Source of the DNA: Proteromonas lacertae
Taxonomy: Eukaryota; Sar; Bigyra; Opalinata; Proteromonadidae
Assembly (NCBI GenBank): GCA_002245135.1
Contig: NGBS01000030.1
Span: 1-64,000 of the forward strand
Reading direction: 5' to 3'
DNA: 64,000 nucleotides
Numbering within the stretch: position 1 is the stretch's first letter; each line of letters starts with the position of its first letter. The position numbers and the translations under genes are program-made. Below, piece after piece: positions 1-49,616 of this stretch. The notes beneath the pieces are model-generated. The model had not been told where the DNA came from, made no database searches, and saw only the letters and a program-made list of their open reading frames with translations.

Positions 1-3000
1 TACTGTTGAATAAATATATAAACAATGTAATAGAGATAAAAACCTGTGAATTTGAAGATAAACTATTATATCGATTATCAATTCTTACATATTTCTTTTG
101 TCATAAGTTGTTTGAATCATTTTCTTCATTGGAAATAGATAAGATGTTAGTAATAATATATAAATGTTTAAAGAGTAAAAAATACGAGATAGAACGAAAT
201 GGTTTGTTGTATAAAAAGTATATTAAATGCTAAAGAGATTCGATATGGAAATATAATAAAGAAAGCTAAAATCAAGATTGATCCAATAGATTGTCCAATT
301 ATATATGATGATGAAAGATCCTTAAGAGAAAGAAATGAAGTAGAAGAGAATAATGGTTTATCATTGAATAATTCACCATTATTAGTATTACCATCACCAT
401 CATCGTCACTGTCCATATCATATAATGAAATTGTATCACCAAGAATACCTTCAACAACGTCATTAATATCGAATGAATTAATAAGATACAAAGAAGAATT
501 AATAAAAGAATTTATAAATTATATTGGAAGATGTGACAAAAGACAAAAATCCAAATTATATATTTATTTAAAACATAATAATCCAATAATTGATTCAATC
601 TATGTGATATTATGTATATTAAATTATATGTCATTTTCGAATGAAAATAATATCGAAATAATCAAATGTCAATATGAAAGTTTGATGGAATTATTAAAAG
701 ATAATCATTTGAATTATATGAAGATAAAAGTTCATATCTATTCATTACTAAGTCCGTTATTAATAGAATATAAAGACAATCACAAATATGATGAAATGTA
801 CTTGAAAATGATCCACAGAGATTTACAAAGTAATTGGAAATTGTTATTGTGTTTAGTGTTATACAGTTTATGTAATTTTACAAAATATAACAGTAACAAA
901 ATGAATAATAAGAATATAATGTTAAAGTTGTGTGAAATGTTTAAGAATGAAGATAGTTATTTACTATATGATGTATATATCTTTTTTGATATTAAGTCAT
1001 TATTCATCTCATCGTGAATTTCGAAAGCTATTAAGTGAAAAGATCAATTTAGAAACAATTCAACTACTATTAGATGAAAGTGAAGAAGAATCCTTAGTAA
1101 AATCAATCATTAGTTTTTATAACAAATCTAATCCAAGAAAATGAAGAAATATCATTACTATCTGCTGAGAATAATACAATGTTGAATAATAAATATCTAT
1201 TTTCTGTATTATATCGTCGATATGATTCCAAAGTAATATCGATGTTATATACTCCATAATCCTCAATTTAGACAATTATCCCAACTTGTGTATTCCAATA
1301 TTGAAATTATGTGAATTATTTACTTTGAACTTCAGTTATTCGATGTATACAATAGGAAAACTATATCCAATTCTTCACAAGAATTTTCATAACTTTTCAA
1401 AGGAAGAACAAATTGCTTGTGTTAAATTTGTTCATGATCATTCTATATCAGATGATTTAAGAGATGGTAATGGAATGTTAAATGAAGAAATATGTGAATC
1501 GTTATTAAGAATGAATCATAAATTGATTTGGAATTACATATTACAATATAATTCTATATACACACAAATAAAAATTTCTTGAATATTTTGAAACATTTTT
1601 ACCATATCAAAATGTCATTAAAAGGAAGGATTCTGAAAATAGATTATCACCAAATGTATCATCTGCAGTAAGTCCATCTATTTGCAATTTCCCATCACCA
1701 AAAATTGAAAATGAAAAATCTGGAAATGATATTAGTAGTAGTATATGTGATATAATAAATGAAGAAGGAGATGATGATGATGATGATGATGACGATGAAG
1801 AATCATGTAAAGAATATTATCAATCATTAACAAATTCATTGATAAAATGCCTGATACCAAGTTTTATTGATGATAGTTTGGATGATAAAGTTATATATGA
1901 TCAATTCTATGAATTTGATGATAGTTATATGAAGGTAGTAAGTGGAGAAGTATTTATCAATAATGATAATACTCATCAAGAAGGATATCCGCCAAAGTTT
2001 ATTTATGATACAAATTACTTATTGTTTACTTCATTGTTACAGTTTATGTATAATACAATGTTCAGTGGAAACTTTTATCCATCAAAGAGATTATTGAAAA
2101 TATATTTCCCAGTTAACATTAATTATACTGTTTGTGGTAAGAATTATACTTTAACAAAGTTCGATTCAGTTTTTAATGATAAAAGACATTTTTTTGTTTA
2201 TATTTTAATCATGTAATAATGAACAAGCAAAGCGGTAGAGCAATAGCGAATTGGTTGCATAGTCATAAAAGAGTAGTTTCTTTAGAATTGAGAATGCAAA
2301 AAGATGACTCATATTTTTATGGTTTTATATTATTCATTTTTAAATATCATACCAAAATCTATTACATCAATAGTATTTTATTCATTACCATCAATTGATG
2401 AAATAGAATCAGTTTTTAGTTTGAATTATAAAAGAAGAGGATCGAAACTAATAGAAGGAATAGGAATAATTGAAAGTAGTTTACATTTGTATCTAGTAGA
2501 CAAAGAAAACAATAATTATTTTCCCTTAATAACAAAATTATTTAAGAATGACAGTTATGGTGTAAAATGGTATGATTTACAGAAGAATGATTTAACTGAT
2601 GAAGATGTATCTGAGATATTATCTGTCTTGAAAGATAATTCATCTGTAGAATCATTCGATTTTTCTAATAACAATATCAATGTAGGAGATAGAATGACTG
2701 AAATACTTTGTTCAACTAAAGAACCTAATATGGTGAATAGTAATGATAGTGTTAATAGATATAGAAGTGTTAATAATAGTTTTATGAACATGGAATTACT
2801 CCAACTCCACTTATTTTTAGTGGTACAACACCTAATAGTATTAATAATCGAAGAGTATCTAGTGGATCTGGATTGTTTCTATCACCATCAGCATCTCCTT
2901 CAACACCTTCCTTTTATGTGAATCATGTAAATACTTTTCAGATTGAACCACAGAAATCTAGTGTAGTAAATGACATTAATAAACAGAACAATATAGAATT

Positions 3001-4938
3001 GAAACATGTTGCTTCTCCAATCAATAAAAAGACAGTTCCTCCATTAGTTATACCTATTATGTCTAGATCATATATCAGTTGTTTAAATGTATTGCTTTTA
3101 AATGACAACAATATATCAATTTCAAATGTGATTAAGTTGTTTAATGCGATATCAGTGGTTGATAGTACTTTGGAAAGATTTTATATAACTAGAAATCATC
3201 TAAGAATTGAGGATAGTGAATCAAAAATGGATATAATGAATAAAGAAGGAGATAGACTGCCATTATTTATTCGATCATTAATAGAATTATTTAAATCGAA
3301 TACATCATTAGTTACATTTGATATATCTGAAAATGAATTTGATTTAACACCATATTTCACAGAAATAACAGAAGCATTAATAGAAAGTAAAGATAGAAGC
3401 CATCTTCTTCATTTTGTAGTTGATACTTATTGTAATGATTGGGATACTTTTGTGTTTAATTTTAAGTCAGGTGGTAGTGATGTTGTTAACAATAAAATGA
3501 GTAATTCAGAAAGTGAAAATGAGCGAAAAAGTCCAATAGAATATTTGAATGCAAATGAAGGTGATGATGATCGTAATCCTGATATGATATTGTTTTATGA
3601 GTTTACCATTGGAAAGTAAATATTTAAGAATAGAAGATGAAAAAGATTCAATAATAAATACATTAAATAAATCAAACATGTAATATAAAACTGAATATAG
3701 TTTATGGAAATGAAAGTCGTATTACTCCATGTTATCATCCTCAAATATTCCATTATGCTGGTCATGTCGGAATAAAAGATTCTGTATTTATTCTTGAAGA
3801 TTGTAATGGAGGAGAAATAAAAAGAAACAGTAAAGATTTTATCAACTATATTTATCCTGAAAATACATATAATTTAAGATTAGTATATTTAAATGCCTGT
3901 TATAACGAAACAATATTGAACCAATTATTAGAAAAGAAAATTCCTCACATAATCTCATGTAATAAAGAATATGCGACAAGAATAAGCGATTCTGTTTGTA
4001 TTGAATTTTCTCATACATTTTATCAAGCATTATTTCGTGGTTATACAGTATATAATGCTTATAAATTAGCTTGTGATTCTGTTTCAATTTATGAATTAGA
4101 AAATAACAAACCTCCTTTTATATTAAGTCCAATAAATGGAAATCATGAAGAAATTTTGTTTTATCCCATTGTGAAACATACATTTACAATCGAAGAGCCA
4201 ATATTCTTATTACCTAAACTACCGAAAATATTTGTAGGTCAAGGATATAGAATAAAAAGATTATTAAAAATCTATAATAGTTTTTCTTATGATAAGAATC
4301 AAATAATAATTCCAAGAATCACATTAATTCATGGAAAAGAAGGAACTGGAAAGTCTTTATTTGCTTTAGGTGTTTTACATTATATTGAAACAAGAGAATT
4401 AATATTGACAAATCATGTGACATTTTATATATCCTTAGAAGGTTATAAAATGTGAATGAAATAATGAAGTTTATAAAAGACCAAATGTTATTACAGAAGA
4501 AACGATTAGAAGAAATAAAACCAATTCTAATAAATGATTTAGAAAATGCAAGTAAAATAATGTGTTTAATTCATGTAGAAAGTGAAAATAATGAAGAATT
4601 GTATAACAGATTAAATAAAGAATATAAAAAGACAAAATTTATAATAACAACGAGAGATTTTACTTCATTTGGATATTCATCTCCAAGAGAGGCAATTGAT
4701 GTAAGTAGAGTAATTGTTCCACATAATCCATTGAATGATTTTTTTCATGATGATTTGATATATGAAGTATATAAAAGTCTTGTTACTGATTATGATAATG
4801 ATGAAATATCAGAATTTAAGAAATTATATAAAAATACTTTAGATTTCTCCAACTTTAGTATATTTATTTATTTTATATTATGAATTAGAAACATTGTTTA
4901 ATGACATTTACAGAAAGATTCGTGAATTTAGATTTTAA
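1..4938 (+). CDS. LRR - CHAT protease - NB-ARC/STAND-like NTPase protein (5' partial)
   Basis: Multi-exon gene entering from the left edge. The N-terminal half (to about 2,300) is helical, with an Asp run near 1,770-1,800. Around 2,570-2,700 it reads as ribonuclease-inhibitor-type LRR (LQKNDLTDEDVSEIL, then FDFSNNNINVGDR), with further LRR near 3,070-3,400. From about 3,715 comes a CHAT domain: HYAGHV with candidate catalytic His at 3763-3765 and LNACYN with candidate Cys at 3898-3900, about 45 residues apart in one open frame. Then a P-loop GKEGTGKS (about 4,333-4,356) and an NB-ARC-like KFIITTRD motif (about 4,630-4,660); the expected Walker B acidic pair is replaced in IMCLIHVES. Tiny introns resolved by phase include 202-235, 973-1027, 1113-1137, 1244-1271, 1290-1335, 4442-4479 and 4858-4888. 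The last codons end in REFRF then TAA at 4936-4938. A one-base frame change near 1,571-1,577 has no GT..AG explanation. Function is inferred: CHAT plus STAND-like NTPase suggests a signal-activated protease. Confidence 0.75.
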
Positions 4939-5070: not shown

Positions 5071-8000
5071 TTACTGTTTAGTTAAAGTAGCGAATTTATT
5101 CATTTGTGTTTTAGTTTGAGTTGTAAATGTTCTTGACATATTAGTTGTAAACGACATATTACTCAACGATTTGTGAGATGAATTTCTTGAAGTTGAATAA
5201 CTGCCACCAATAGCACTATTTCCACCAGCAGAACCACTTGATGTAACATTCTTTGCATCTTCATCGATATAAATACTCACTAATTTCAAACCATATTGTA
5301 ATACTCCAACTATTATCGCTGTTAAATGAATTCCCATTGATCTTAATAATAAAGCTGAATCTGGTTCAGTACTTACATTAAAATCTAATAATACCATTAT
5401 TGCACCAAGTACTAATATCACTATTGAGGAGATAAACATTCCTAACGAATCATTATGTTCATTTGCAATATTCTTTGTTGAATTTGACATGAATACTAAT
5501 ATTACAGCAGGTAAGAAATCTGTTATTAATTCAATCACTGTAAATGGAGTTGAATATTCACATTCTCTTATTGATACTTCATTGAAATAATTACTATTTG
5601 AAACACTGTAAGTACCTACATATTCATTTGGATCTACTGTAAACCATATTAACAACAATATAGCTTCAAATATCATAAAACCTAACCAAAAACTCAATAC
5701 TCGATATATTGTGATTTTAGTTTTACGAATTGATCCTCTGATTCTTCGATGTTTTTGGTATAATTTTGATTCTGTTGCAAATAATGCCCCAAGTAAACTT
5801 TTCACAGCTAAACCTAATACAACCACTCTTGTAGCACAAACACTATTATCAGAGGCTGGATATAAAGACATTGGAATTGAACTAAATGCTAAAAATATTA
5901 ATGCAATTGCTGTTACAAAGTTATGAGCTCTACCAAATGTACGTATAATACTTTGTTGTCTGTGAATAAATACAAATATTAAACAACTTATTCCAACTAA
6001 CATAGATAATCCCATTAATGTATAACTAACAGCTTCTATTGTTACACTGTATTTATAAAACACTTGATCTTTACCATATTTACATTCATTAGGTAATCCT
6101 TCAGGGTATGGTTCTGGTTCAAATAATGAATTCGATCCTCTTGATGGGAATAATTGAATAAACTTCGCATTACGATTAATTTCAAATACATATGAGTTAC
6201 GAGATACATAGAAAGATTCAGTTACTTTAACTAAACCAGAAGGAACTTCTACTTCTAATCCAATACCAGTTAATTGTAAATATCTTAAAGGAGGTAAGAT
6301 CTTACCTGAATCAGTCACAGCTGTTGGATATAATTCTTCCCAAATTGCAAATGAATCTTTTATTGCTTCGATATTATCATCAATTGCTGTATTTATACCA
6401 ATATAACCTTTAGCATCACTAACAAATGATTGTGAAATTGCAGTTGATAATGATTCTTCATAACCTTGTACAACTAAAGAACCATATATTTGAGATAATA
6501 AATCATCAGTATAATCATTTTTGTCAAAGTTTAAGAAGGTTAATAAAACTTCACGACTATTGATTGAATTGGATATATAAGTATTAATAAACTTCAAACT
6601 AATCTCACCTGTCAAATAATATAATACTGCAATTCTACCATTCTCATCATCTTCTTTTTTCTTCAATATTGTACTAATAGCATCATTGATTTCATTCTCT
6701 GTTCCTTCTTCAATTGTGATTCTAGAAATTGTCTGTTTATTTACAGAGTAGTGTTCTTTTACATAATAATAAACAATATCCCAATTAGTACTCATCAATT
6801 CACTATTATCAGATATAAATATTAAACTATTAATTCCTTGTTTATGAATATATTGTTCAGCAGATAAGAATCTTTGAGAAGCTGTTGTACCAACTGCTAT
6901 TCTGTATGGATAACAACTTTTTCCTTCAGTAAAACCATAATAAACATATAACTTTGAAGTTTCTTTTGCTGCTGATAATGCATTATCCATACAAACACTA
7001 GTTTGACATCCAAAGAATGCTACAACTTCATCATCTTTCAAATATGGTGCTGTTTTATTACCAAATTCATCACTTGTAGCAGCAAATATAAACACTGGTA
7101 CAATATTATAACCATTTATTCCATTGTAATTAATATCTTGAACTAATGAATATTCAATAATCATTGCATTTACTTCTTTCAATTGTGCTTGAGTTGTTTC
7201 ATGGAAGAATATCATTTTCAATGTATCAGGTCTATATCTACTCTCACTAATTGTCCAATCACATTTATATCCTTCATTTTCAGGGAAATTATGAATCCAA
7301 GCTTCGGCTTGTTCTGGATTTGATGCATATTCAGTCACTCTTAACGATTTATCTTCACCAATGATACACAAGTATAAAATTCTGTTAATAATACCAGCAC
7401 CATTCATTTCCACTTTACCAGATGGAGCCATCATTGTATAACCATAGAGTGCTGTTCTTACTTTCTCTGTATCAAATGTCATTGTATAAGCAACAACAAC
7501 ATCAGCCCATAATTTAACAGATGTATAACCACTCTCCATTGCGGCTGTAATAATCACATCTTTACCATATCGATCTTTCATAGTTGATACAAAATCACTA
7601 GCTGTTGATAGATATGTATTACTATCGGATTCTTCTAAACCCATTTCTTTAATAAATGATGTTAATATATAAGCATTAGCCATACATTCAGATGGGATAT
7701 ATTCCATCAAATATCTATCTAATGATATTGATACAACATATGTATTAGTCATGTTGATTTTGAGTGGACATAACCAATTAAATGCTTTATAATTATTATC
7801 TTCAGACACAGCTAAAATAACAGATGAATTTCTATCTAAATTCTTATAATCAAAACTTTCAGGAACTGTTTTAGTTTCTATTATTTCTGTCAAGTTATAA
7901 ACATGTAAATTCAATTGTATCTGATTACATAATGCTTGCAAGGCATTACTAAACTGTAAACTCCACTTAGAATCACCTTGTATAATATATACATTATGTG

Positions 8001-11000
8001 TATAAGGTAATATTTGTTTCCATACACCATTTACTAACTGATTGATTGTTAATTGTGTTCCAAATGTATATTGTGGACATGATTCACTTAATGATAAACC
8101 AGGATAGAAGAATAACTTCTTATTTTGATCAAAATATGGAACTAACATATCATTAATTTCAGCTCTACCAGCACCAAATACAGCTGTAACTTCATCCAAT
8201 CTTGTGAATTCTTGACCATATTGTAAATACTTCTCAGCTTTAGATTGTGCATCTCTAATTAATATTTGTATTTTCTTTCCTAATATACCACCATTAGCAT
8301 TTAGTTCATCAACTGCGACAATAATACCTTGTGCAATTGATCTTTCAGTTGTATTATATTCACCACTAAATGAAGTAATAACACCAATTGTTGTAGTTGC
8401 TTCTTGATAATAATCACCAATTGATGCATCTTCAAAATTACATATATAACTACCATCGTTTATCCATTGTTTATAAACTTGAGGGAGATGTATTTCAGCT
8501 GATGTAAAAATAACGTCAAAACCAAATTCTGGATCATTTTCCTTTAATTTGCCATACACAATATATTGCTCCATGAAATTGTTGGTAAACATTTTAACAT
8601 TTCCTCCACTGGGTGATTTATAATCTATACTATATAATGCTTCTCTTAATGCATCAGATCCAGTACCTCCAGCTTTAGTTACTGCTTCCAAATAGATATT
8701 ACACATTACAAAACTTGTATACATAATCTCAGTAGCATAAGTACTTAAAGATAACATATTCTCTTTAAAAGCAACATTTTCTGGATTATCTAAATTAGTG
8801 AAATATGTTTGAGCAGAATAGAATGGTTTAACTCCTTCAGCACCAGCATTAGATGCAGTTGTAAATGATACAATTGGATAACTCTTATAATCTGAACTTA
8901 AAGATATAATTGATTTATCCAATAACACATGAATATTTGGAGGACCAACAAATAACAAATAGCAGCCATTCTTAGCTTTTGATATCAATATATTAACAAT
9001 CTCATCAAATGATTCAATATCTAAAGAAATAGCATTATTTGTATATAAACTATTAGCACCAACAAAATTCAAATATTTTGTAATATAATTATAATAACTA
9101 ATACCAATTTCATCGTTTGTTGTAATAGTACAAAAGTTCAATGTTTCTGGCTGTGTAGGTTCCATAATATAATCAATAATTCTATCAATAAAACTGGGTT
9201 CTTTCATTGCATTATATACATCTTCATAACATGATTCACCACCTGTATAACCTACTTGGAACAATGGAACATCTTTCTCACGTAGTAAGTCAGTAATAGA
9301 TTGAATACAAGCACTTGTAGCTGTAGTAAATATAACACCTCTTCCTTTAATAACTTGTTCCAAATATGCAGATAATAAAACATTGCAAGTATTATCATTT
9401 GATTCAATATCATAAGATTGAACAATAACTCTCGTCCCTAATAAACCACCATTTTTATTATTTATTTCTGAGATTAATAATTCAAAGACATTCAACACAT
9501 ACATATCATAATTTCTATAAGAACCACTGACTGATAAAGCGACAATAACTGTAATTGTATCAACTGTTCCTTGACTACCAACGTTAGCATTAGAGAAATC
9601 ACAAATTTTACCATCAAATCCTTCAATTTCCCAATTCCAAGCTCGAGGTTCTTGTATTCTAGTTTGACTGTATGCTACTGTTAATGATAAGTCTTTATTA
9701 ATCTGCATAATATAATATGGTAATGAAATATGATTATTTGAAAACATCATCACTGGACTAGTACAACCACTAATCTCAGAAGAATATAATTGTGAATTGG
9801 GTAATTGAGATTTTGCCCAGAACTTCAATGCTAGATAGGAACTATGTGCTAATTCATTTGTTACTACATTACCATAATGATATTTAACTGATTTTAAATA
9901 ATCACATTCTGGAGCTATTTCATCAAAGAATGAACCACAAATATAATTCTGAACATATCCTCCAGTTAACTTTAATGAAGTAGTAATATCTCTATCTTGT
10001 GTAATAGTCACAATCATATATTTATTTTCTTCATAAACCATAGTATCAAAATAATTAATAAAATCAATTGTTGTTTCATAATCTAAGGTGCTAACAACAA
10101 TGGCACCTTCAGCATGATTAGTGATTAAATCATCTACATATGTATAAGTTGTTCCTTTACCACTAGATACATAAACAGGTTCTCCAATCATTGTATATAA
10201 ATCTTTAAATATTGAATAAAACACTTGATGAATTACTTTATCACTTTCATCATTCATTCCAATTAAAAAGATGTTATTAGCAACAGATGTTTGATCAATA
10301 AATGAAGATAATTGTTTAGCATATAAATTGGGAACTAAACCTGTATAATATACATTCTCTTTACATTCTTGTCCTTCAGATGTAGCTGGATACCACAATT
10401 TCTTCTTTTCTACTCCTTCTACTATAGTATTCGTCAAATGCTTCTGATACAGTTTTTCTACAGTAATTGTTAGAACATCCTATTACTAATACAATTGAAG
10501 GATCTTTAGCAATTTCAATAGCTTTCTGTTCAATTTCACTTTCTACACTTACATCATATATTATATAATTCAAAGTTAAATTCTCTATTTCATTTAAGAT
10601 ATTCATTGTATCAATTTCACCAATCATCACATCTAATGTCAGTAATTCATGAGCACTATTTGATCCAGTTATTGCATATAATAAAGCGACATTTCTACTA
10701 TTACTTTTTAATTTACTACCAGTGGTATTAGCTTTAACACTCCATTCACAATAATACATATTTCCATTATTATTGTATTGAGTAGAATATGGATTTATAT
10801 CAGTTTTATGATTAATATTTATAATGATTTCTTCAGTATGAGTTTTATCCTCTGCATTATATGTTACTCTAATTAAATCCATATAGAATGATAATTGATT
10901 ATTAGAATTAATAGTTACATTTTCAACAATATCACTAACATCAACCTTATGAATTGCTTCAAAGAATGCATCAAATGTATAAGGTATTTCTTCACTTTGA

Positions 11001-14000
11001 TTGAATTCTACACTTCCTAAAGCTCTTGCAGCTATCACTACAGATAATAATGGTAATGGAGCAGGTTGTTCTGTAATAAACGAATAACGATTATTTGCAA
11101 TATCAATGATTGTTTTATCTTTGAATAATTCTTTATGTAAACCATTCACGAAATAATGACCATCATAATACTGCCATAATGATTCATTTATCACTTGAGA
11201 TAATTCCAAATTAAATGAAACAACTTTATAAGTGTCAGAATTATAATTTGACTTCAATTCTATTAAGAAATCAGTAATTGAATCTCCTTCTAAGAATGAC
11301 AATATAACACCTTGTTTCATTTCATTAACAATGATATTCAATATAATATTCATTTGATATTGATCCACTGGTATTCTTAAACTTCTAATAACATTTATAC
11401 CTCTTTTCTTTAACTCTTCTGCTGCATTTGCAGCATCCATTGAGTTTCTTTCATTATCAGTGTATAGTATAAATATATCACTACTTAAACTTCTATAGAC
11501 ATAAGATATTGTTGGTAATATATATTCAGTAAATGGTGAATTCATGTAGATAATGTTTTTACTACATTCATAACCTTCATATAAGAATGGATAGAATAAA
11601 ATCAATCCATTATCTTCCAAATCTTCTATTATTTCTTTTCTAATCTCTGTAATGGATGATCCAAAGACAATTAATGTTTTTGATTCATTGACAGCTCTTG
11701 CTAATGAATACTTTGCAATTTCAACATCATTTGCAATGTTAATAACTTCAGGAATAACCATCATTCCATGAATACCTTTATCATGTTGATTAATATAATC
11801 TACAGCAGCTAAATATCCATTAATCATTTCATTACTTAAGAAAGTATAATCACCAGAGAATGGGATTAAGAATAAGAACTTTATAGATGGATATGTATAA
11901 TTACTACCTTTCTCTTTACTACAAATTGTATATTGTTCTAAATTAAATGTATGTCTGAAACTTTCAGCTGGCCAATCAGTAGAAAGAGTTTGTTTGATAG
12001 TCAAATCTCCATTTATATCACTTGTCACTGCAGTTAAAGGGAATGGAATTGTAGTATCATCTTCTGATATTTCCACTTCACCAAATGATGTGGACAACTT
12101 ATCAGAATTAATATATTTGTAAACAGAATCCTTACTAAAATCTTGAGTTGAAATATATACTTCAATTAATATTTCATAAGCAACAATACCTCTTGCTTCT
12201 ACTTTTGGTAAGAAGTAATTTTCACCAAAGAGATTAACACCAACATTGAATATCTTAGGTGCTGTTGTTTCATCAGCATGTAAAGAGGCAATAACATAAT
12301 GACCAACTTTTAACTTTGGATCTAAATCAATGAAATATTCTTTTTGCCAACTGATTATAGGGAAATCTAATGATGCTTCTTCTACACTCTTGTAAGTATT
12401 CATCATTGATTGATTGTAGACTTTAAATACTTCATCATGGCATTCTCGATTAGTTAAATAGTTTAAGAAAATACCACCATCAGGAATTGACAGTTTATAA
12501 GCACTAACGAAATTCTGAATATCTTCCAAAGCAATTTCTACATTTGATTCATTAATAACGATATAATTCTTAATAAAACCACCCATATTCTCAATTGTAT
12601 TATTCAATAATGTATCTTCAGCTGTACCAACTAATGTATGACTTACTAATACCATTGTATTTGGAGAGAAGTAAGACATAAAGTATGAAATATATGGAAT
12701 AGTTCTTTGACTGGGGAAAGATCCTAATTCAATACTATTTTAATATATATAAATATAAATATATTATAAATATACATTCTATTATTACAAACATCTTCAT
12801 TCTTATTAACAACTGATAATATCAATAAATCTGGATTATCTTGGATATATTTATTCTGATACTCAATACTACAAGAAGTGACTACAATTTGAGATTCAGT
12901 AATATCACTGGCTGTAACATTATCACAATAATATTTGACCAATACAATTGAAGTATCTAATTCATTATTATTTACCATATATTGATTCATTAAGAAGAAC
13001 ATTGCTTCTTCATTTTCATTGATTATAACTACTATAACAATTGATGAAGTATCTGATGATGAAGATGATAATTCACAAGTTTCGTTTTTACCATCAGCTC
13101 TCTATAATTAAGATAAATAAATAAAATAAAATAAAATATACATATGTTAAATATGGTGATAATTTCATTGGACTTAAATTACTCAATTTAATTTCAAATC
13201 CTAATGTTTCATTCACTTGCATAATAACATAAAAGTTAGAAAAGCAATTATCAGCATTAACAGAAATAGTACCAATAGGTAATGATTGTGTTAATTGATT
13301 CAACTGTCTTTTGATTTCACTTAATACTTTCTGAGTAGATTGTTCATATGCAGTTTTTAACATAGTTAAAGCTGAATACATATTAATTGAATGTTCATTC
13401 AATAATCTATCACTATTACCAAATGCAGTTGAGAATGTCTTAACTAAAACATCATTTGCATCGTTTACTTCAGTATAAAGATAAGATGTTAAAATGTAAT
13501 GACCTACCCATCTATCGTCTTCAGTTGTAACAAAGGTTGGTAATGAATCTAAAGAAACAACAGTATAAACATCAGATGTTAAGTTATTCTCTTTCATACT
13601 TCCTAATAAATCATTAATTTTACCTCCTAACAAGGTAAATATAAGCATATTATCATCAGTATAATTCGTAATATCAGTAGTAAAATTATCTATCTTATAT
13701 TCATCAGTAATAGTATAAATCGAGCAATTCATTAATTCAACAGTCAATATAGTTTGATATACCATTTCACCTACATTCTTAGTAAAGTTACTATCAGCCA
13801 CAACAATCGCACACTTTCTAGATGGTGAAGAATGCCAAGCAAATGCAGAAAGAGCAATAGCATAATGATTAGGATATCTTCCAACTTGAATTATATTATC
13901 ATAACATCTTTCACCTTCACTTGGATGTACACTGAATAATAACTTATCATATTTCACTAAAATATCATGAATTGCATCTCTTTGTTCATTTGTTGTAGTT

Positions 14001-16796
14001 CCTATAAATGCTAATATATTACTGTCATTTGCATTCTTTTCCACATAGTCTTTCAATGCAGCAATAGTGTCAAATGTATGTATTGTTCCTTGTAAAAGTC
14101 TTCGGTTTATACCATCATCATTGTTGAAATTGGCAATCATAACATTAGCATAATTGGTATATTCATCAATATAATCTTTAAAATAATTATCAGTAACATA
14201 CAAAAACACAATTTCATAGAATTGAGTGATTGTATCAGTTCCATCAAGCCAAGTGCATCTTTTCTTTATATCCATATAAGCATTAGTTTGTTCAATATAT
14301 AAGGAAGTTGAAACTGATTCGATTTGATTATTAGTTGCATTGATTTTACCTAAATGTAATTCACAGTTGATATTACCTTGTGAATTCCATTCAACTCTTC
14401 CTCCAGGTCCTTCAATACTTCGTGAATAAACAATCATTTGGTTTATACTATCATGATCAGTAGAACGAGCAATTTCAATACTCTATATAAAAATAATACA
14501 ATCAATAATATTTATACATTTGCTAATAAGAATAATGATGAATATGCAAATGCAGTTGTTGCTGTAGTTGTATTATATGATTTTATTACAGACGAATTTA
14601 TCATTCTTCCCTTATACTCTTCAGCTTTAAAAGTATCTAATGAATCAAAGTAATAATTAATAACATAATGACCATCATACTAAATAATAAATAAATAAAT
14701 TTAATATACAATTGTCCAATTAGATTCCATTACAGCTTCATCTAATGTGAATGACACAACAGGTTGATTCTGAGGTGATAATTTGTTATTTTCATTATAT
14801 TTCTGGAAGAATAATGAGTGGTAATCTCTCTCCATTATATTCACAACAATACATCTACCACCTCCATCAGGATCAGCTTTTTCACAAGCACTACTCAATA
14901 ATTGACATGCATTAGCAGCTTGAACTTCAGTATTGGATCTTTCTAAGTAATTATCGATAATATTAAATCCACCAATAGTTTGAGTTAGGTTTGTAATACT
15001 GTAAAATGTATTGGTTGAAAAATAACCAAGTGTTCTTACTATATATAAGTTTGTAATTCCTGTAGTTGTCTTTAAGGTTTGTAAACCATATTTCCATAAT
15101 GAATAAATACTAGCTCCTTACATAGAAATTAAAGAAAAATAAATATATAAAAAAATTAAAAGGATATAGATAAAACATTCTTTCTACAAGTATTACCAGC
15201 TTCAGGTGTAACATGAATATATAAATAATCAATAGTACCATCATCATTCAATAAAGATAGAAAACTATTCATATGTTCAGCTTCAGCAGTGCTAAATATA
15301 CCAACAATATTGAATCTACTTGCATAATTCTTAAATTCGTCAAATACCTCTTGTGGTGTAATAGATAAATCAATATAGATTGGAACTATTGGTTTATTCA
15401 AGACTGGTTTCTATATATAATAATAATATTAAAATGAAAATATAACTATACATTTTTATTAAAATAATCAATAGCAGCAGTAAATGAATTAATAACATTC
15501 TTTTCAAATGGAGCAAATTGATTTTTAGTTATTGTCACTCTATATGTCATTAATGCAACATAAATAACATCAGGCTTGTATGCAGTTTGAGATTCTAATA
15601 CATTACAAATAGTATCTTTTGGTATTCCATTTAAGAATGAATAAGAAACATCAGATGATAAAGTAGTAGTTTGTATTGTATCAGTTTTTATACCACTAGG
15701 ATCACTGTCATCCAATATAGCATTATATACATCAGAAATCAAAATATTACCAGGATTAATACCAAATGTCATTCCATCAGCTTCAAAATTGGCTTGTTTA
15801 TATCCTGTATATAATATATCACTTGTACTTGAAAAATCATTCAGTCTATCCTTTCCTATTTGATAGTATAAGTTAATGTGTTGGTATAAAACTATTGATT
15901 CTAAAGTATAATCTTTATTAGTCAGTTTAGTACCACTATCTGGGTTAGGCATTTTATTTAAAAAATCATTAGTTAATACTAATGCTTCAGATATAATAAA
16001 ATCTCCATTATTATTTGATTCATGTAATACTTTTCCTCTTCCATATACGGGAGTATAAATAAAATGATATTTTTTAACTAGATCTGCAGCAAGACCAGCA
16101 CTATTAATTTTTGTTTTGATTGCAGTACGAATAGTATCTTCTTTTGAAAAATAGTAAATGTCAAATTCATCAAGATCAGCTTGTTTTAATGCATTTATAA
16201 TCTTATCAGTTACTGTATCAACATCTGTTGATTTAGAAATTACCATATCATGTTTATAAGCTCTGAGATAAGTAAAAGCAGTTATTATTCTATCTTTCAA
16301 TTCAGCATTGAGGGTTTCATCAATCACAAAAGCAGTATTAAGGATTGTATTATCATTATTATCAGCAGCTATTTAACATATATAACAAATAATCATTTAT
16401 ACCTCTCAAGAAACTTCTTGTTGTATAATAACCAAGTATAATCCTTGAATAACAAACTTCCACCTCAGTGTTCATAGCGTTCCATACATATAAATTCTGT
16501 TCCTCTGCTATAATATTCAGCAAAGTTATATTAACATCAGAAAGATGAGTAAAAAACATATCTTCACTTGGATGGCCTTTTTTAAACTGTACAATGGTAG
16601 CATTTAAATTATCATCAGTAATAGTAACATGTGGATCGTATATTTCTATTTTAATATCTTGTGACTCATAGTATTTTAGAATCACTTCCATGTCATCTTT
16701 GAGTGAACCAGAAGTAACAAAATACTTAGTTACAAGAGCAGCCAAAGTATTCTCATGAAAGGAAGACCACAGCAAGAGAAAATAGAAAAAAATCAT
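5071..16796 (-). CDS. Giant class C-type 7TM receptor with nine tandem PBP1-like ligand-binding modules
   Basis: Starts at 16796 with a hydrophobic signal peptide (MIFFYFLLLWSSF) and stops at 5071; about 3,800 aa after removing about seven short introns (e.g. 16369-16402, 15411-15451, 14680-14709). The ectodomain repeats a PBP type 1 fold. The Cys motif after the 'E-G-x-x-C' turn recurs at about 16455 (EVEVC), 15190 (EAGNTC), 13905 (SEGERC), 12790 (NEDVC), 11565 (YEGYEC), 10370 (SEGQEC), 9235 (GGESC), 8080 (SESC) and 6915 (EGKSC), spaced 1,115-1,285 nt. Most modules end in a 'C-x-W/F' linker (CTWLDG, CEWSVK, CDFSNA, CNFEDA, CDWTIS). Module 8 resembles ABC urea/amide-binding proteins (NANGGILGKKIQ). 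A 7TM of class C type follows (about 5,320-6,080; ESKLYQKHRR loop), then a Ser/Thr-rich tail. The frame changes by one base near 10,390-10,430 and the exon join near 15,117-15,196 is unsure. Likely a surface receptor for small ligands such as amino acids. Confidence 0.8.
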
Positions 16797-17132: not shown

Positions 17133-17799
17133 ATGATTTCCTGTGAACTTGATACAAAGATAAAATATTATTGTTGGAATTTGTGTCCATCATTATCAAA
17201 GGTATTGATGAATGAAATTTACTAATCTGTAGAATGTGAAGCCAAAGACATCTTACCTAAAAAATATGTCTGTAAAAGATCTTGAAGAGCAATATGCTGT
17301 TGAAGAAGACAGAGATACTAATGAAAGAATTATGAATTTAGTAAAATCATCAGGTATATGGTATTTTCATATGACACATGCACCAGTCCGTACAAGTGCT
17401 CAAGCTGCAGAAATTAGAGGAGTGTCTTTAGCCAGTGGTTCAAAAGCAATGTTATGTGAAGCAAAAAGTCAGAATGAGAATAAATATTATGTTTGTGTTA
17501 TGTCTGCTGTTAAGCAAATTGATTGGAAGAAACTAAGAAAACTAATAGGTAAAACAGCGCAAATGATAAATAATGAAAATGAAGTTAAAAGAATAACTGG
17601 CTGTGTTCCAGGCGCAGTTCCTCCATTTGGTAGTTTATTCAAAGGTGAAAGTGTTCAAACACTCTTAGATCAATCTTTAATAGATCAAGGTGAATTAATG
17701 AATTTTAATGTTGGATTAAGAACTGAGTCATTAAGATTAAATGTAAAAGACTATTTAGAATTAGAAAAGCCAATAATTGACCATTTTACTAAAGACTAA
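17133..17799 (+). CDS. YbaK/ProX-family aminoacyl-tRNA deacylase-like protein
   Basis: The main exon (17233-17799) encodes a YbaK/prolyl-tRNA editing-type domain: KSSGIWYFHMTHAPVRTSAQ near the start, then GVSLASGSKAMLC, and the typical GCVPGAVPPFGSLF segment that forms the substrate pocket. Such proteins hydrolyse mischarged tRNAs (for example Ala- or Cys-tRNAPro) in the cytosol. I place the start at ATG 17133: an exon of 23 codons ends at 17201, and a 31-nt intron (17202-17232, GTATTG..TGTAG) joins it in frame. If that exon is not real, the first ATG in the main frame is 17266, which still keeps the whole domain. About 212 aa in the longer form, a normal size for a free-standing family member. 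Composition matches its neighbours, so nothing points to recent transfer. Confidence 0.8.
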
Positions 17800-27325: not shown

Positions 27326-30300
27326 TTAATCATTTTCAGGTATTGGCAATAAATTAATTCCACTTTTTATATTTTTCAAATTCTTATCAGGATCAATAAC
27401 AATACTACCAGGTCTTGAATTTGGTCTTGATGATAAAACCATTGAACGTTTATACAAAGTTGTTTTACGTCTTTCTTGTGCTACAACTATTCTATCAATC
27501 TCTTCCTCGGTCATTTGGTTATTTAAAACATTAACTACTAAACTAATAGCACAACTTCTAACCATATTCTCTGAATGACTCTCAATATATCTGAAATGCC
27601 TTACATCATCTAAACTCATCTCATAATATGGACTTCCAACGAAACTATCCCAAAAGTCATTCAATAATTTGTCAAATACTAATTTCTTTGCTTCTTTAAA
27701 TATTTCTTTTGTCTATTCATATAATATAACACATAATATTTATATACAACAACAGCAAAATGAGCAGTAATATTCTCTTTTATTTCAGGTGTTAATGGAA
27801 CAATGTCGTATTCAATATATTTTGTTATTATCATATATGCGTTTTGTTCTAACTCTTCTTTTGCTTTAATCTTTGTAAATTGCTTTACATCATGATAGAA
27901 TTCAATCAGACTACTCATATTGTATTGTTCAGCAAAACAAATCATATGCGCTCTTAATATTCTGTTCTTCAAAAACTTCTTCATTTCTTTAATTTTTTGT
28001 TTCTTTGTTGCTAATGAATAAGGTTGCAATAATGAAGGTTTAGCTCTCATCAAAATAATAATAGGAAAAGGAAGCATATAACAAATGCCAAAACATACTA
28101 AACCACAGAAAAAGAATACAATTACAAATCTTTCATATGGTAAAAGCCAATCATTTACTAGTAAAACTGCTCCACACATAATACCTAAAAACCTATTCAA
28201 CATTATATATAATATATATATATATATATACAAATAATAACCTTCAGTATAAACAACAAGTTTATTTTTTCTTTTACAACCATACACAAAGAAATATATT
28301 TGAGCGGCAACTTCAAACCAAATGAAATAGGAGAATAATGTTGGTGAAAAATACGATTCACATGAATAATAATACACTAATCTATTCCCAACTAAATCAG
28401 CATTGTATTTTATATAAATTGGAGATATAAACACTCTACATACTAATAAAATAAAATATATAATCAAAACAGCAGCTTCTATGTATATTATATTCCCTTC
28501 ATATGTAAAATTCTGTTGAACTTCTTCATTCACTAAATAGGGGGTAAATGCATAAGTTCCAATTGCTAAATAATACACAAATGATTGCAATGAACATAAA
28601 AATGTAGTTGGTCTTCCTACAATAATGAATTGATATGTAATAATGATTAATGGTAAAAAATACCACATTGCAAACATGATTGGGAATCTATAAGCTCTTA
28701 ATTTTCTATAATAAATATATATAAACTATGAAATATACCTTCTATTCATTATAGTAAAAATAGCCAAACTAAGTAATAACAACAAATCAAGAGCAGCAAC
28801 TACATACAATCCAATAACATCTGGTACAAGAAAATAACTTGATTTTTCAACTGGATTCCAAGTCCAAGGTGAAGGAGTAATATAACCACAAGTACAATCA
28901 CTATATCCATTCTCTTCTGTGCAAACATGACCATTTTGATTACAAACAGGTGCTGTTGATGGTGATACAATATACGGTGTTCTATAATCATCATATGATT
29001 GAATTTGAGCTAAGGTTGATTTTAATTCTTGATTCATTCCATCATTATCAAAACCAACTGGTCCAAAAAACGTCTTCCAAGGTTTACAATCACAACTATA
29101 CAAAGCACATGGTTGAGTATATGAATTATCATCTTCATTTTCACATACAGAAAAGAAATTATGAATTGTCAAATAAATATTATTCACAGGACTTGAATCA
29201 AAATATGTATTATCATTATCATAATTCAAATTCCTTAATGTGGATGATAATTCGACAACTCTTTGAATTGTTACACCTATTAATGAACCTCTAGCAATAT
29301 ATTCATAATCACCATCTAAATCAACAACCATATTATAAACTGAACTATTCATATATTTCATATAATTATCTTTAGCATATTTCATAAAATTATCTGTTGA
29401 TCCTAAATATGATTTTATAACATCATTTCCATATCCTTGATTCTCACTAAATGCTGTACTATAATAAATATAAGTATTATCTATATCATATTCTCTAGGT
29501 CCAGTAACAGTATAAGCTCTAGTGAGACTCATTATCACTTTTGGAGTATAACCAATTGCTTTTAATATGTGTAAATAAGATGGTAAATTCTGATCAACAT
29601 TTAATAATAATATATCAGGATCAAGTTCTTGTGCTAACTTCAACCATTTTTCAATTTCATCAACTCTTCTTTTGACTATATGTTGACTAGTATCAACTAG
29701 TGGATAAACACAAGCTTCATCACTTCCACAATCACTTACACTATGGCAATTAATACCTGTAAAATTAGTTCTATCATTTTCACATCTTTTTTCTATTAAA
29801 TCAATTGATACACCAGCAATATCTCTATAATGATCTACTATTGCTTGAACACAATTAATTGAGTATAATATATCTATTGTATCACCTAAAATCATCCACC
29901 TTCTATAATTCAATCGTTTATGAAATATTTCAATAGCTGGCAAGGCTGTTTCTGTAGATTTCATAATTGGTGAAAAGGCAAATTGATAAGCAGGTGAATA
30001 TGCTTCCTCTGGACCACATGATCCAATTACACCAACTTCAAAGCCATACATACCATATTTGTTGTATATATACTTATTAAGATGCATATTATATTCATCA
30101 CCCATTGGCAGTATGATGAAATGTGGTTTCTCATAATTATCTCTATTTGCTATATCATCAACCCATATAGTAAGTAGATGTAAATATTCGTTGTCATTGG
30201 CATTTAATACACCAAGATCTATAATTTGCAAACATACAGGCATTCTATACATTATATAAAATAGAATGCGAAAATACCTTTTGCCTCCCACACATTCCTT

Positions 30301-30608
30301 ATTTACTAATGCATTTGTATCACCACCTACACATATACCACCTTCTGAATTGATCGCATCTCTCCATAGATAATAACCTGCCCAATTTGGTATCTCTAAC
30401 AGTTAAAATATTATTTATCATATACCAAAAACATTAAATACATTGCTACTACTACTAGCTACTTCTATTCGAATATCTCCCTCTTCGCACTTGGATTTTG
30501 AGAATTGAGTAAGCATATTGTCACCATACTTGCTTTCCGCCTATAGAATTATAAAATATATAATACCAATTTTAAAATAACTATAATCCATACTATAATC
30601 AAATTCAT
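27326..30608 (-). CDS. 7TM receptor with PBP-like, Cys-rich ectodomain and C-terminal RGS domain
   Basis: The start ATG at 30608 encodes a signal peptide (MNLIIVWIIVILKL) joined across a 26-nt intron to AESKYGDN. The ectodomain looks like a PBP1 receptor fold (AGYYLWRDAINSEGGICVGG, then YGFEVGVIGSCGP), followed by Cys-rich segments (CALYSCDCKPW, then CTEENGYSDCTCG) before the membrane. Seven hydrophobic segments run from about 28,785 down to 28,030. After the last TM comes an RGS domain (about 27,620-27,960): FAEQYNMSSLIEFYHDVKQF, then EIFKEAKKLVFDKLLNDFWD and SFVGSPYYEM. RGS domains accelerate GTP hydrolysis by G-alpha, so the receptor may shut down or tune the pathway it senses for. Stop at 27326. 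Introns of about 26-48 nt, including a TA repeat intron near 28,205-28,250, join all pieces in phase. Confidence 0.8.
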
Positions 30609-47997: not shown

Positions 47998-49530
47998 TCA
48001 ATCATCAAAAACAAAATCTTCTTCCCACGCTACCATCTCAATTTCAACAACACCTCTGTTTAATCTACGTGTTTGTATAGGTTGTTGTTCTGCAACCAGT
48101 ATTCCATTAGGATTATTTTCACCAGGGATAATACCAACAACATAATTATCACCATTTGGACTTTCAAATAACGAAATATCAGGAACAAAATCATCTTCTA
48201 CTGTTTTCTCATTCTTCTCATTTGTTTTAGTAAATAATACAGAAGGAATAGATGTTCTTTCATCCCATGTCATTTCTGGAATAATATTAAAATAAGGTTC
48301 ATTCGGTCTAAATCTAAATACTATCAATATCCAAAACACTGAAATAATATCAACAATTTCTCTATAGTAATGTATTTTATAAGTTTGAATAGTAATTTCC
48401 CTAACAAATGGCATAGCAATTCCACGGAATATACATAAGTAAAATAGTAATACTATAAAATAGAAATACATTTTATATTTCTGATAAACAGGAGTATTAT
48501 AACCATCTACATTATCTCTTATTATCATTATTAATTGAGTTCTTAATAATTTGATATTTTCAATTGTTTTATATATTAGAAAACATATTGGAAGTACATA
48601 TATAATTGCAGTGAATATATAAGTCACTAAACTTTCAATAATATAAGTTTCTAATATTAACATAATCGAATTACCAATATAATAAAGTGAAACAAACAAA
48701 ATAATGAATCTCACTTCATTAAATGTCAATTGTTGCCTAACTAATTGATATCCTTCAGCAATCCAAAATAAACATAACATTGTTAAACTTTCATATAATA
48801 ATCTGCAGAATAAAACTACTACATCAAGATATATATTGCATAACCTTCCATTCATATTACATACATACCAAATTGAATAATCAATTAAGCAAGTGAAAAA
48901 TTTGAATGATGGTATTGTTACTAGCACTTGTATTAATGATGTAGCAGCTGAATGTCTATAGTAATAACATAATAAAGCCCAAATTCCTGCTACAAACATA
49001 TATATCAAAAACAATCCCAAATACATATCATCTATTGTATCATATGGTCCATTTTTCCAACTTATTTCATAATGGGAATCTTTAGGAACTCTAAAACAAT
49101 ATTGTTGATGATCTGTATAGACTGAACAATTGAAGGAATCTGCTTTACATTCTTTTTTGTATTTTTCACACTCAAATCTACAAGCTCTCCAATAACTAAT
49201 ATGCAATCCTGATTTTGGACAAAATGGATATGTAGCAGCACAAGCAAACATTTTTGCAACCTCTAAGCATGATTTCTTGTTAGTTTTTGATAAATTACCA
49301 TAATATTCATTAGCAAACATACCTTGTTCATCAGCTGAATATGTAGTTGGGATATAATCATATGATTCAACAGCTCTTGCGTATGTCCATGATGTACTAC
49401 CTTTACAAATCGTATTTTTTGGAATGTGTTCGGGCTCACCAGGAGAATCACATACATATTCTAAAGTTAAAGGATCTAATAAATAGGATAGTTTAAGACA
49501 CAAAAAAAGAAGAAACAGAGTAGTAATCAT
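47998..49530 (-). CDS. 7TM protein with Frizzled-like cysteine-rich ectodomain
   Basis: Single exon from ATG 49530, signal peptide MITTLFLLFLCLKLSYLL, stop TGA at 47998. The ectodomain (about residues 25-155) has a Frizzled-type Cys pattern: SCLEVAKMFACAATYPFCP, then YWRACRFECEKYKKECKA and a closing FNC..YC pair. Seven membrane segments follow (about residues 170-425), with WIAEGYQLVRQQLTFNEVRF after TM4 and an acidic cytosolic tail (about 85 residues). The membrane part lacks the Frizzled KTxxxW motif and looks somewhat like GOST/TMEM145-type 7TM proteins, so this may be a CRD joined to a different 7TM class. Frizzled-like receptors without Wnt occur in amoebae and early fungi. Convergent with the ITPase gene. 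Confidence 0.75.
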   Translation of the reverse strand: MITTLFLLFLCLKLSYLLDPLTLEYVCDSPGEPEHIPKNTICKGSTSWTYARAVESYDYIPTTYSADEQGMFANEYYGNLSKTNKKSCLEVAKMFACAATYPFCPKSGLHISYWRACRFECEKYKKECKADSFNCSVYTDHQQYCFRVPKDSHYEISWKNGPYDTIDDMYLGLFLIYMFVAGIWALLCYYYRHSAATSLIQVLVTIPSFKFFTCLIDYSIWYVCNMNGRLCNIYLDVVVLFCRLLYESLTMLCLFWIAEGYQLVRQQLTFNEVRFIILFVSLYYIGNSIMLILETYIIESLVTYIFTAIIYVLPICFLIYKTIENIKLLRTQLIMIIRDNVDGYNTPVYQKYKMYFYFIVLLFYLCIFRGIAMPFVREITIQTYKIHYYREIVDIISVFWILIVFRFRPNEPYFNIIPEMTWDERTSIPSVLFTKTNEKNEKTVEDDFVPDISLFESPNGDNYVVGIIPGENNPNGILVAEQQPIQTRRLNRGVVEIEMVAWEEDFVFDD

Positions 49531-49561
49531 CAAAAAAACAAATTTTGTATTAAAAAAATAT

Positions 49562-49570
49562 ATTCGGTTC
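49562..49570 (+). promoter_or_regulatory. Variant ATTCGGTTC motif before Nop53
   Basis: ATTCGGTTC 55 nt before ATG 49617, a one-base variant of the ATTCGTTTY word seen before other genes. Confidence 0.25.
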
Positions 49571-49616
49571 TTATTATTTCACAAACCATTTTTGGGTGTT
49601 TGAAAAATTAATCAAA

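Follow-up and report, generated by a model that had tools for sequence, protein, structure and literature searches.

The 64,000-nucleotide (nt) stretch of DNA analyzed here (Proteromonas lacertae, contig NGBS01000030.1, positions 1 to 64,000; hereafter the window) includes a gene, assessed from its sequence and from models, that appears to encode a membrane receptor. We consider it probable that this gene is one of a large family of class C, GABA-B-like G protein-coupled receptors (GPCRs) whose outer part is a chain of nine Venus-flytrap modules of the PBP1 fold and of UrtA/AmiC type, and this judgment extends to the mechanism proposed below. Its computed basis comprises the module counts, the predicted fold of module 8, the model shape of modules 7 and 9, the GABA-B-like seven-transmembrane (7TM) domain, the kinship of modules by position, and low ratios of nonsynonymous to synonymous change (dN/dS) in modules 3-9. 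A previous reading of the letters alone (the sequence-only reading) had proposed about nine PBP1-type modules on one class C 7TM domain between positions 5,071 and 16,796. Profiles, Pfam matches and structure models support that architecture, and the start and stop codons fit the span. The parts of the gene are as follows, where i-E is the independent expectation value of a profile match.

5071 to 16796, minus strand: whole receptor gene, with ATG at 16796, stop at 5071-5073, and eight exons in the gene model.
16712 to 16796, minus strand: possible signal peptide, MIFFYFLLLWSSFHENTLAAL, judged by eye.
15641 to 16727, minus strand: module 1, degenerate PBP1-type, weakly supported by profiles; turn and linker cysteines present.
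14270 to 15571, minus strand: module 2, i-E 1e-48 on the spliced protein; holds introns 2-5.
About 15196 to 15117, minus strand: intron 3, approximate boundaries from the gene model.
13142 to 14221, minus strand: module 3, i-E 5e-66; Pfam PF13433.
11951 to 13044, minus strand: module 4, i-E 7e-31; holds intron 7.
10781 to 11890, minus strand: module 5, i-E 1e-60; Pfam PF13433.
9631 to 10699, minus strand: module 6, in two pieces (i-E 1e-12 and 4e-45), crossed by a frame shift.
10376 to 10479, minus strand: overlap of two reading frames, with one extra base relative to the copy C1020.
8464 to 9561, minus strand: module 7, i-E 1e-64; structure modeled.
7291 to 8397, minus strand: module 8.
6106 to 7224, minus strand: module 9, i-E 3e-63; adjoins the membrane domain; structure modeled.
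5308 to 6051, minus strand: class C 7TM domain, nearest solved relatives GABA-B receptors (7tm_3 match, hydropathy and model).

An iterated module profile places the modules consecutively, at about 360 residues each and with short linkers, and modules 2-9 are clear. When run on the spliced protein, this profile matches modules 2-5 and 7-9 at i-E values of 7e-31 or better, and finds module 6 as two pieces (9e-14 and 2e-46) split by the frame shift. Stretches of PF13433 (Peripla_BP_5) are present in three of the four reading frames of the gene: the 1802-amino-acid (aa) frame has four, the 786-aa frame three and the 460-aa frame one, whereas the 307-aa frame has none. A structure model of modules 7-9 contains three modules of alternating strands and helices (mean predicted local distance difference test, pLDDT, 79), and its predicted template-modeling score (pTM) of 0.67 indicates that the three may have a preferred arrangement, and no more than that. 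In another model, the fold of module 8 was matched to UrtA by structure comparison, where the VIA-align rows mainly span model residues 1-382 and thus say little on module 9 and the 7TM domain.

The sequence-only reading relied on an E-G-x-x-C turn recurring nine times at intervals of 1,115-1,285 nt, and on C-x-W/F linkers ending most modules. Nine turn cysteines are indeed spaced at 1117-1282 nt and a linker cysteine follows all nine modules, but the strict turn motif is found in only four modules (EGERC, EGYEC, EGQEC and EGKSC), with looser versions in the other five, and C-x-W/F was seen by eye after only five. Both the turn and the tail cysteine are present in 87 of 98 modules, and the same pair exists in UrtA. 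Both motifs resemble those of this bacterial protein, a likeness that the sequence-only reading missed.

At the other end of the protein, the 7tm_3 profile matches with 72.9-78.1 bits (E 4e-20) against a curated cut-off of 33.5. Seven hydrophobic segments follow module 9 in a hydropathy scan and seven helices appear in the structure model, as expected from the single terminal 7TM domain proposed earlier; the same crude scan shows six segments for the database protein P0002, a relative, versus seven in the window. A Venus-flytrap module lies directly before the 7TM domain, as in class C receptors, and the usual plan of that class, a single flytrap per chain (not strictly defining), is violated by the presence of nine. 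The cysteine-rich NCD3G domain (PF07562) does not appear among the matches listed for the window frames (E up to 10), for L012, L013 and L018 (E up to 1), or for P0002 (E up to 0.01). By this mark the receptor does not fit the mGluR/CaSR/T1R subfamily, in which that domain lies between flytrap and 7TM. Among solved structures, the 7TM domains of the relatives P0002 and C713 are nearest in sequence to GABA-B1/B2, and GABA-B receptors lead the Foldseek list for the window model. The window 7TM domain is GABA-B-like as assigned by these nearest solved structures. GABA-B receptors are obligate dimers that couple to Gi; the genome yields 12 matches to G-alpha genes, which are partly duplicates and fragments.

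The window gene belongs to a large family in which the number nine recurs, a point not seen in the sequence-only reading. A scan of the genome (50.2 Mb in 1181 contigs) gave 132 matches to 7tm_3, of which 123 exceed the cut-off and some are pieces or copies of one gene; PF13433 gave 683 first-look candidates, with 112 scored and listed. Directly upstream of the 7TM domain, module 9 and the end of module 8 are present in all eight of the 7TM loci listed first, two near copies included. We examined 13 genes, among them eight picked for long frames beside the 7TM domain, C1155 as a close DNA relative, C244 for its strong 7TM match, and C168 and C994 for weak ones. Nine modules were counted in 11 of these (the window gene, C283, C713, C356, C624, C830, C116, C1043, C396, C1155 and C244), while eight were detected in C168 and four in C994, for which the fetched stretch begins inside the array. 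Automatic grouping gave nine modules in 9 of 10 genes and ten in C1043 through a stray 24-aa match that we treated as noise; the fragments from C244, C168 and C994 were assigned to modules by visual inspection. Module 1 is matched only in part in several genes. P0002 has a hydrophobic start, nine Pfam stretches and a 7TM domain. Another database protein, P0004, has a best match of 77% in the genome, and so derives from a different species or strain, unless the assembly lacks its gene. A chance motif was rejected as an explanation, given that array and 7TM domain occur together in long single frames and that shuffled fragments are nearly silent (one match in 668). A 746-aa query from C713 (module 9 plus 7TM) found no one-module relatives at E 1e-3 among the 8000 best candidates, in a weak search that required shared 5-residue words.

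Modules at the same position in different genes tend to be kin. By best identity, the closest relative of 100 of the 104 modules sits at the same position in another gene, and this still holds for 57 of 104 when only other deep gene groups are considered (shuffle mean 12.1), with failures for module 1 (0 of 6) and module 4 (1 of 12). The trees require 11 (FastTree) or 13 (IQ-TREE) position changes, where the minimum is 8; on the IQ-TREE tree, which is unfinished and lacks support values, 500 shuffles need at least 67 changes and gene labels need 92. FastTree support for the largest pure position clades ranges from 0.565 to 0.996. Within a gene, modules are only 14-15% identical on average (four genes measured), and conservation tends upward toward the membrane, from a mean identity of 0.161 for module 1 to 0.256 for module 9. 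The kinship by position, the few position changes and the low identity within genes lead us to conclude that the chain was most likely assembled before the receptors of this sample split, and that its modules have not been homogenized.

One pair of genes differs at its distal end. In 150-nt windows, C304 and C1020 share 90-100% identity over the 8 kb downstream of about position 15550, 61-86% over module 1, and 38-45% in their 5′ flanks (window 17050-15450 against L032), such that identity breaks close to where module 1 meets module 2. The pattern suggests that a distal module was exchanged between paralogues, with an assembly chimera as the alternative for this one pair.

In class C receptors, closure of the flytrap re-sets a dimer of 7TM domains. 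We propose that an ancestor with nine modules was built once from a UrtA-like domain, and that within each module a disulphide would join the turn cysteine to the C-terminal tail cysteine and so close it. Given a GABA-B-like 7TM domain and no listed cysteine-rich domain, module 9, the best conserved and the nearest to the membrane, should act on the 7TM domain as in GABA-B, passing on its closure. The outer modules may bind other small, perhaps nitrogen-containing, metabolites, or they may keep the array in shape. A single receptor may thus pass several inputs to the cell's few G-alpha proteins, and the family would serve the chemosensing of its surroundings.

A receptor for urea was rejected as a general reading. 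UrtA contacts urea through W120, S122, Y141, Q144, E146, Y190, N246 and S274, according to PMC10392092, and these residues are mostly absent here: the means by position are 0.55-1.85 of 8, with a maximum of 4 in one module 5, as judged from a remote alignment.

Each receptor might read many small molecules at once; the sequence-only reading had proposed a multi-ligand or length-based sensor. One elaborate possibility, which we advance only tentatively, is that dozens to about a hundred receptors in this lineage follow one nine-module plan as multi-ligand logic receptors, in which the positions bind independently of one another, each having a ligand of its own that is either conserved or variable, recombination swaps the distal module between genes, and a single 7TM domain integrates the inputs. 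Fixed ligands at some positions and variable ones at others would suit the pocket conservation of gene group C, although samples are small and group A differs.

Several observations weigh against the nine-module receptor as proposed. Module 1 of the window is unrecognized by Pfam and weak by profiles, and when combined with its counterparts from C1155 and C1020 it matches module 1 of other genes with an hhalign probability of just 0.2%. For C830, C116 and C244 only 194-291 nt were read upstream of the first match, so a tenth module is possible there. Across deep groups, 47 of 104 modules are nearest to a different position; modules 1, 2, 4 and 7 are not single clades in the FastTree tree, and only modules 3, 6 and 9 are single clades in the IQ-TREE tree. 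Because the modules counted in the cysteine test are related, they are less independent than its p value implies. Against whole GABA-B receptors, the match by Foldseek is local (TMq 0.26, root-mean-square deviation 25.7 Å). Ligand binding is a prediction, with the urea residues largely lost, and passage of a signal from the outer modules to the 7TM domain is an assumption. Finally, the window copy may be a pseudogene or carry an assembly error, given its frame shift and the difficulty with intron 3 described below.

With regard to module 1, its size, its place and both cysteines fit, and its counterpart in C1155 matches in two pieces. Its profile support is i-E 3 on the spliced protein and 3e-3 on one fragment, and a module-1 profile of other genes gives a sequence E of 1. 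Aligned alone against the module alignment by hhalign, it reaches a probability of 1.5% (P 0.035), where shuffled, reversed and unrelated controls give 0.1-0.7%. The combined module 1 of the window, C1155 and C1020 reaches 81% against all modules and 62% against modules 2-9.

In the gene model of the window copy, seven short introns all lie within the first 35% of the gene, and exon 8 extends from within module 4 through modules 5-9 to the 7TM domain, apart from one frame shift. The short introns expected between modules, in phase, are indeed short (30-80 nt), but six of the seven lie inside modules and only one between them, and phases 0, 1 and 2 all occur. The only in-frame GT-AG option found for intron 3 deletes the turn cysteine of module 2. 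This region (15200-15110, minus strand) holds ATATCCTTT and TTCTTTAAT, which we take to resemble U12-type intron signals, and the frame closes cleanly with neither GT-AG nor U12-type ends. A frame shift of 1 nt between 10376 and 10479, overlooked by the sequence-only reading, is absent from the near-identical C1020, which has one base fewer and a continuous frame. The near copies C1021 and C1020, on small contigs, carry several further frame breaks that look like assembly errors. Values of dN/dS are 0.23-0.45 per module against C1155 (modules 3-9, with modules 4 and 6 partial) and 0.12 against C914, with few changes, and these values argue for function of the window copy. A signal peptide at the receptor start, as also claimed earlier, is plausible by eye but was not flagged as a hydrophobic segment in a 19-residue hydropathy scan of the window protein; a hydrophobic stretch immediately ahead of module 1 was seen by eye in C1155. 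On the 5′ side of the receptor gene lies a divergent gene with a tRNA_edit domain (17233-17796, plus strand).

A different view of the array, which we regard as possible but doubtful, is that only the membrane-proximal module, and perhaps module 5, senses ligand, whereas the others have lost their pockets and serve to raise or anchor the receptor as a stalk or adhesive filament. The low identity among modules of one gene and the superior conservation of module 9 over module 1 would fit this, as would the general loss of urea-pocket residues, of which module 5 retains the most. In gene group C, conservation of the pocket columns exceeds that of the remaining columns in modules 4 and 5 (ratios 1.42 and 1.62) and falls below it in modules 1 and 7 (0.77 and 0.66). 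However, the choice of columns follows UrtA, and the pockets of other modules may lie elsewhere, and pocket conservation in group A follows another pattern. Moreover, dN/dS is below 0.5 in modules 3-8 as well as in module 9, PBP1-like folds are modeled for modules 7 and 8, and a spacer should tolerate changes in module number, yet nine recurs.

It is much less probable that the chain is a soluble or shed product that captures nutrients, with modules freed by proteolysis, sponge-like feeding uptake, and a 7TM domain that serves as an anchor; the 7TM domain is GABA-B-like and G-alpha genes are present in the genome. We give almost no weight to the idea that adjacent single-module genes or a decayed cluster were misread as one chain, despite the frame shift and the intron 3 problem of the window copy, since relatives carry array and 7TM domain in single frames of 3672 aa (C283) and 3886 aa (P0002), 22 of the 132 7tm_3 matches lie in frames of at least 2500 aa (a hand count; one of these matches contains two stops), modules 5-9 and the 7TM domain share exon 8 in the window copy but for the frame shift, and no hydropathy-flagged segment lies inside the window array (P0002 has one at 1557-1575). 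Neither outcome named as refuting the sequence-only reading, separate genes with their own starts and stops or fewer than about seven PBP1 folds, turned up in the frames, profiles and models examined.

Other features of the window and genome were recorded. A probable 7TM gene at 27679-30402 (minus strand; 7TM by eye) has an RGS domain behind it (PF00615, E 7e-5, just under the cut-off) and is likely an RGS-GPCR fusion; its outer part, about 530 aa long, gave no significant Pfam match. A Frizzled-like receptor at 48001-49578 (minus strand) has a weak Fz domain (E 4e-5, under the cut-off). A possible multi-exon gene at 193-4883 (plus strand) has leucine-rich-repeat-like and CHAT-like stretches, seen by eye, and a P-loop that weakly matches NACHT/AAA (E 0.03-0.4), and may encode an NLR/STAND-type protein. 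Ribosomal DNA repeats (L029-L031) are spaced about 7.66 kb apart, and the 18S pattern occurs at 19 sites in the genome.

Among known systems, GABA-B receptors have the nearest 7TM domain, no NCD3G reported by Pfam, and a PBP1 module directly before the membrane domain, but they carry one ligand-binding module per chain rather than nine of UrtA/AmiC type. UrtA shares with the modules described here the Peripla_BP_5 (PF13433) match, the fold of module 8 and the paired turn and tail cysteines, although UrtA and AmiC are bacterial urea- and amide-binding proteins, and here nine such modules are joined per chain on a eukaryotic membrane receptor. The bacterial sensor kinase EvgS, a membrane protein, is said to bear Venus-flytrap modules in tandem. 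BvgS does likewise, and the modules of both number two and have the type II fold. These proteins resemble the window receptor in their tandem flytraps, and differ in having two on a histidine kinase rather than nine type I modules on a GPCR.

The Grl receptors of Dictyostelium and Physarum resemble those described here in being protist family 3 receptors with outer domains of the PBP superfamily (PMC10445921). They differ in an outer part described as a large N-terminal domain (ANF, BMP or none recognized) versus nine modules here; up to 37 family 3 receptors are tabled per species, and the word "tandem" is absent from the main text (PMC10445921). Class C receptors are also expanded in anaerobic gut fungi and other fungi, where their N-termini are long (200-1600 and 57-1667 residues) and carry type II binding, BMP, ANF or beta-helix domains (PMC5168858, PMC3251606); for the gut fungi, about 100 class C receptors over three strains are described, none with an ANF domain (PMC5168858). 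In the present receptors, type I modules make up an outer chain of about 3400-3500 residues. For class C receptors, surveys that cover fungi, social amoebae and animal relatives likewise describe, in the parts available, ANF/BMP outer domains and N-termini of up to 1667 residues (PMC3251606, PMC10445921, PMC12716839).

A GPCR with tandem flytraps was not found in the literature searched, which holds few subscription papers. As far as that literature reaches, the receptor therefore represents a new architecture of a known receptor class. Class C receptors are understood through one flytrap per chain and closure within a dimer, and the recurrence of nine across deep divergence raises two questions: over what length of a protein a ligand signal can travel, and whether a single GPCR could carry out computations on many metabolites. 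If a multi-ligand logic receptor is indeed present, it would be of a kind not known to us among GPCRs. The family also amounts to a natural collection of UrtA-type domains in a eukaryote, numbering in the hundreds, and it connects eukaryotic chemosensing with a nutrient-binding protein of bacteria.

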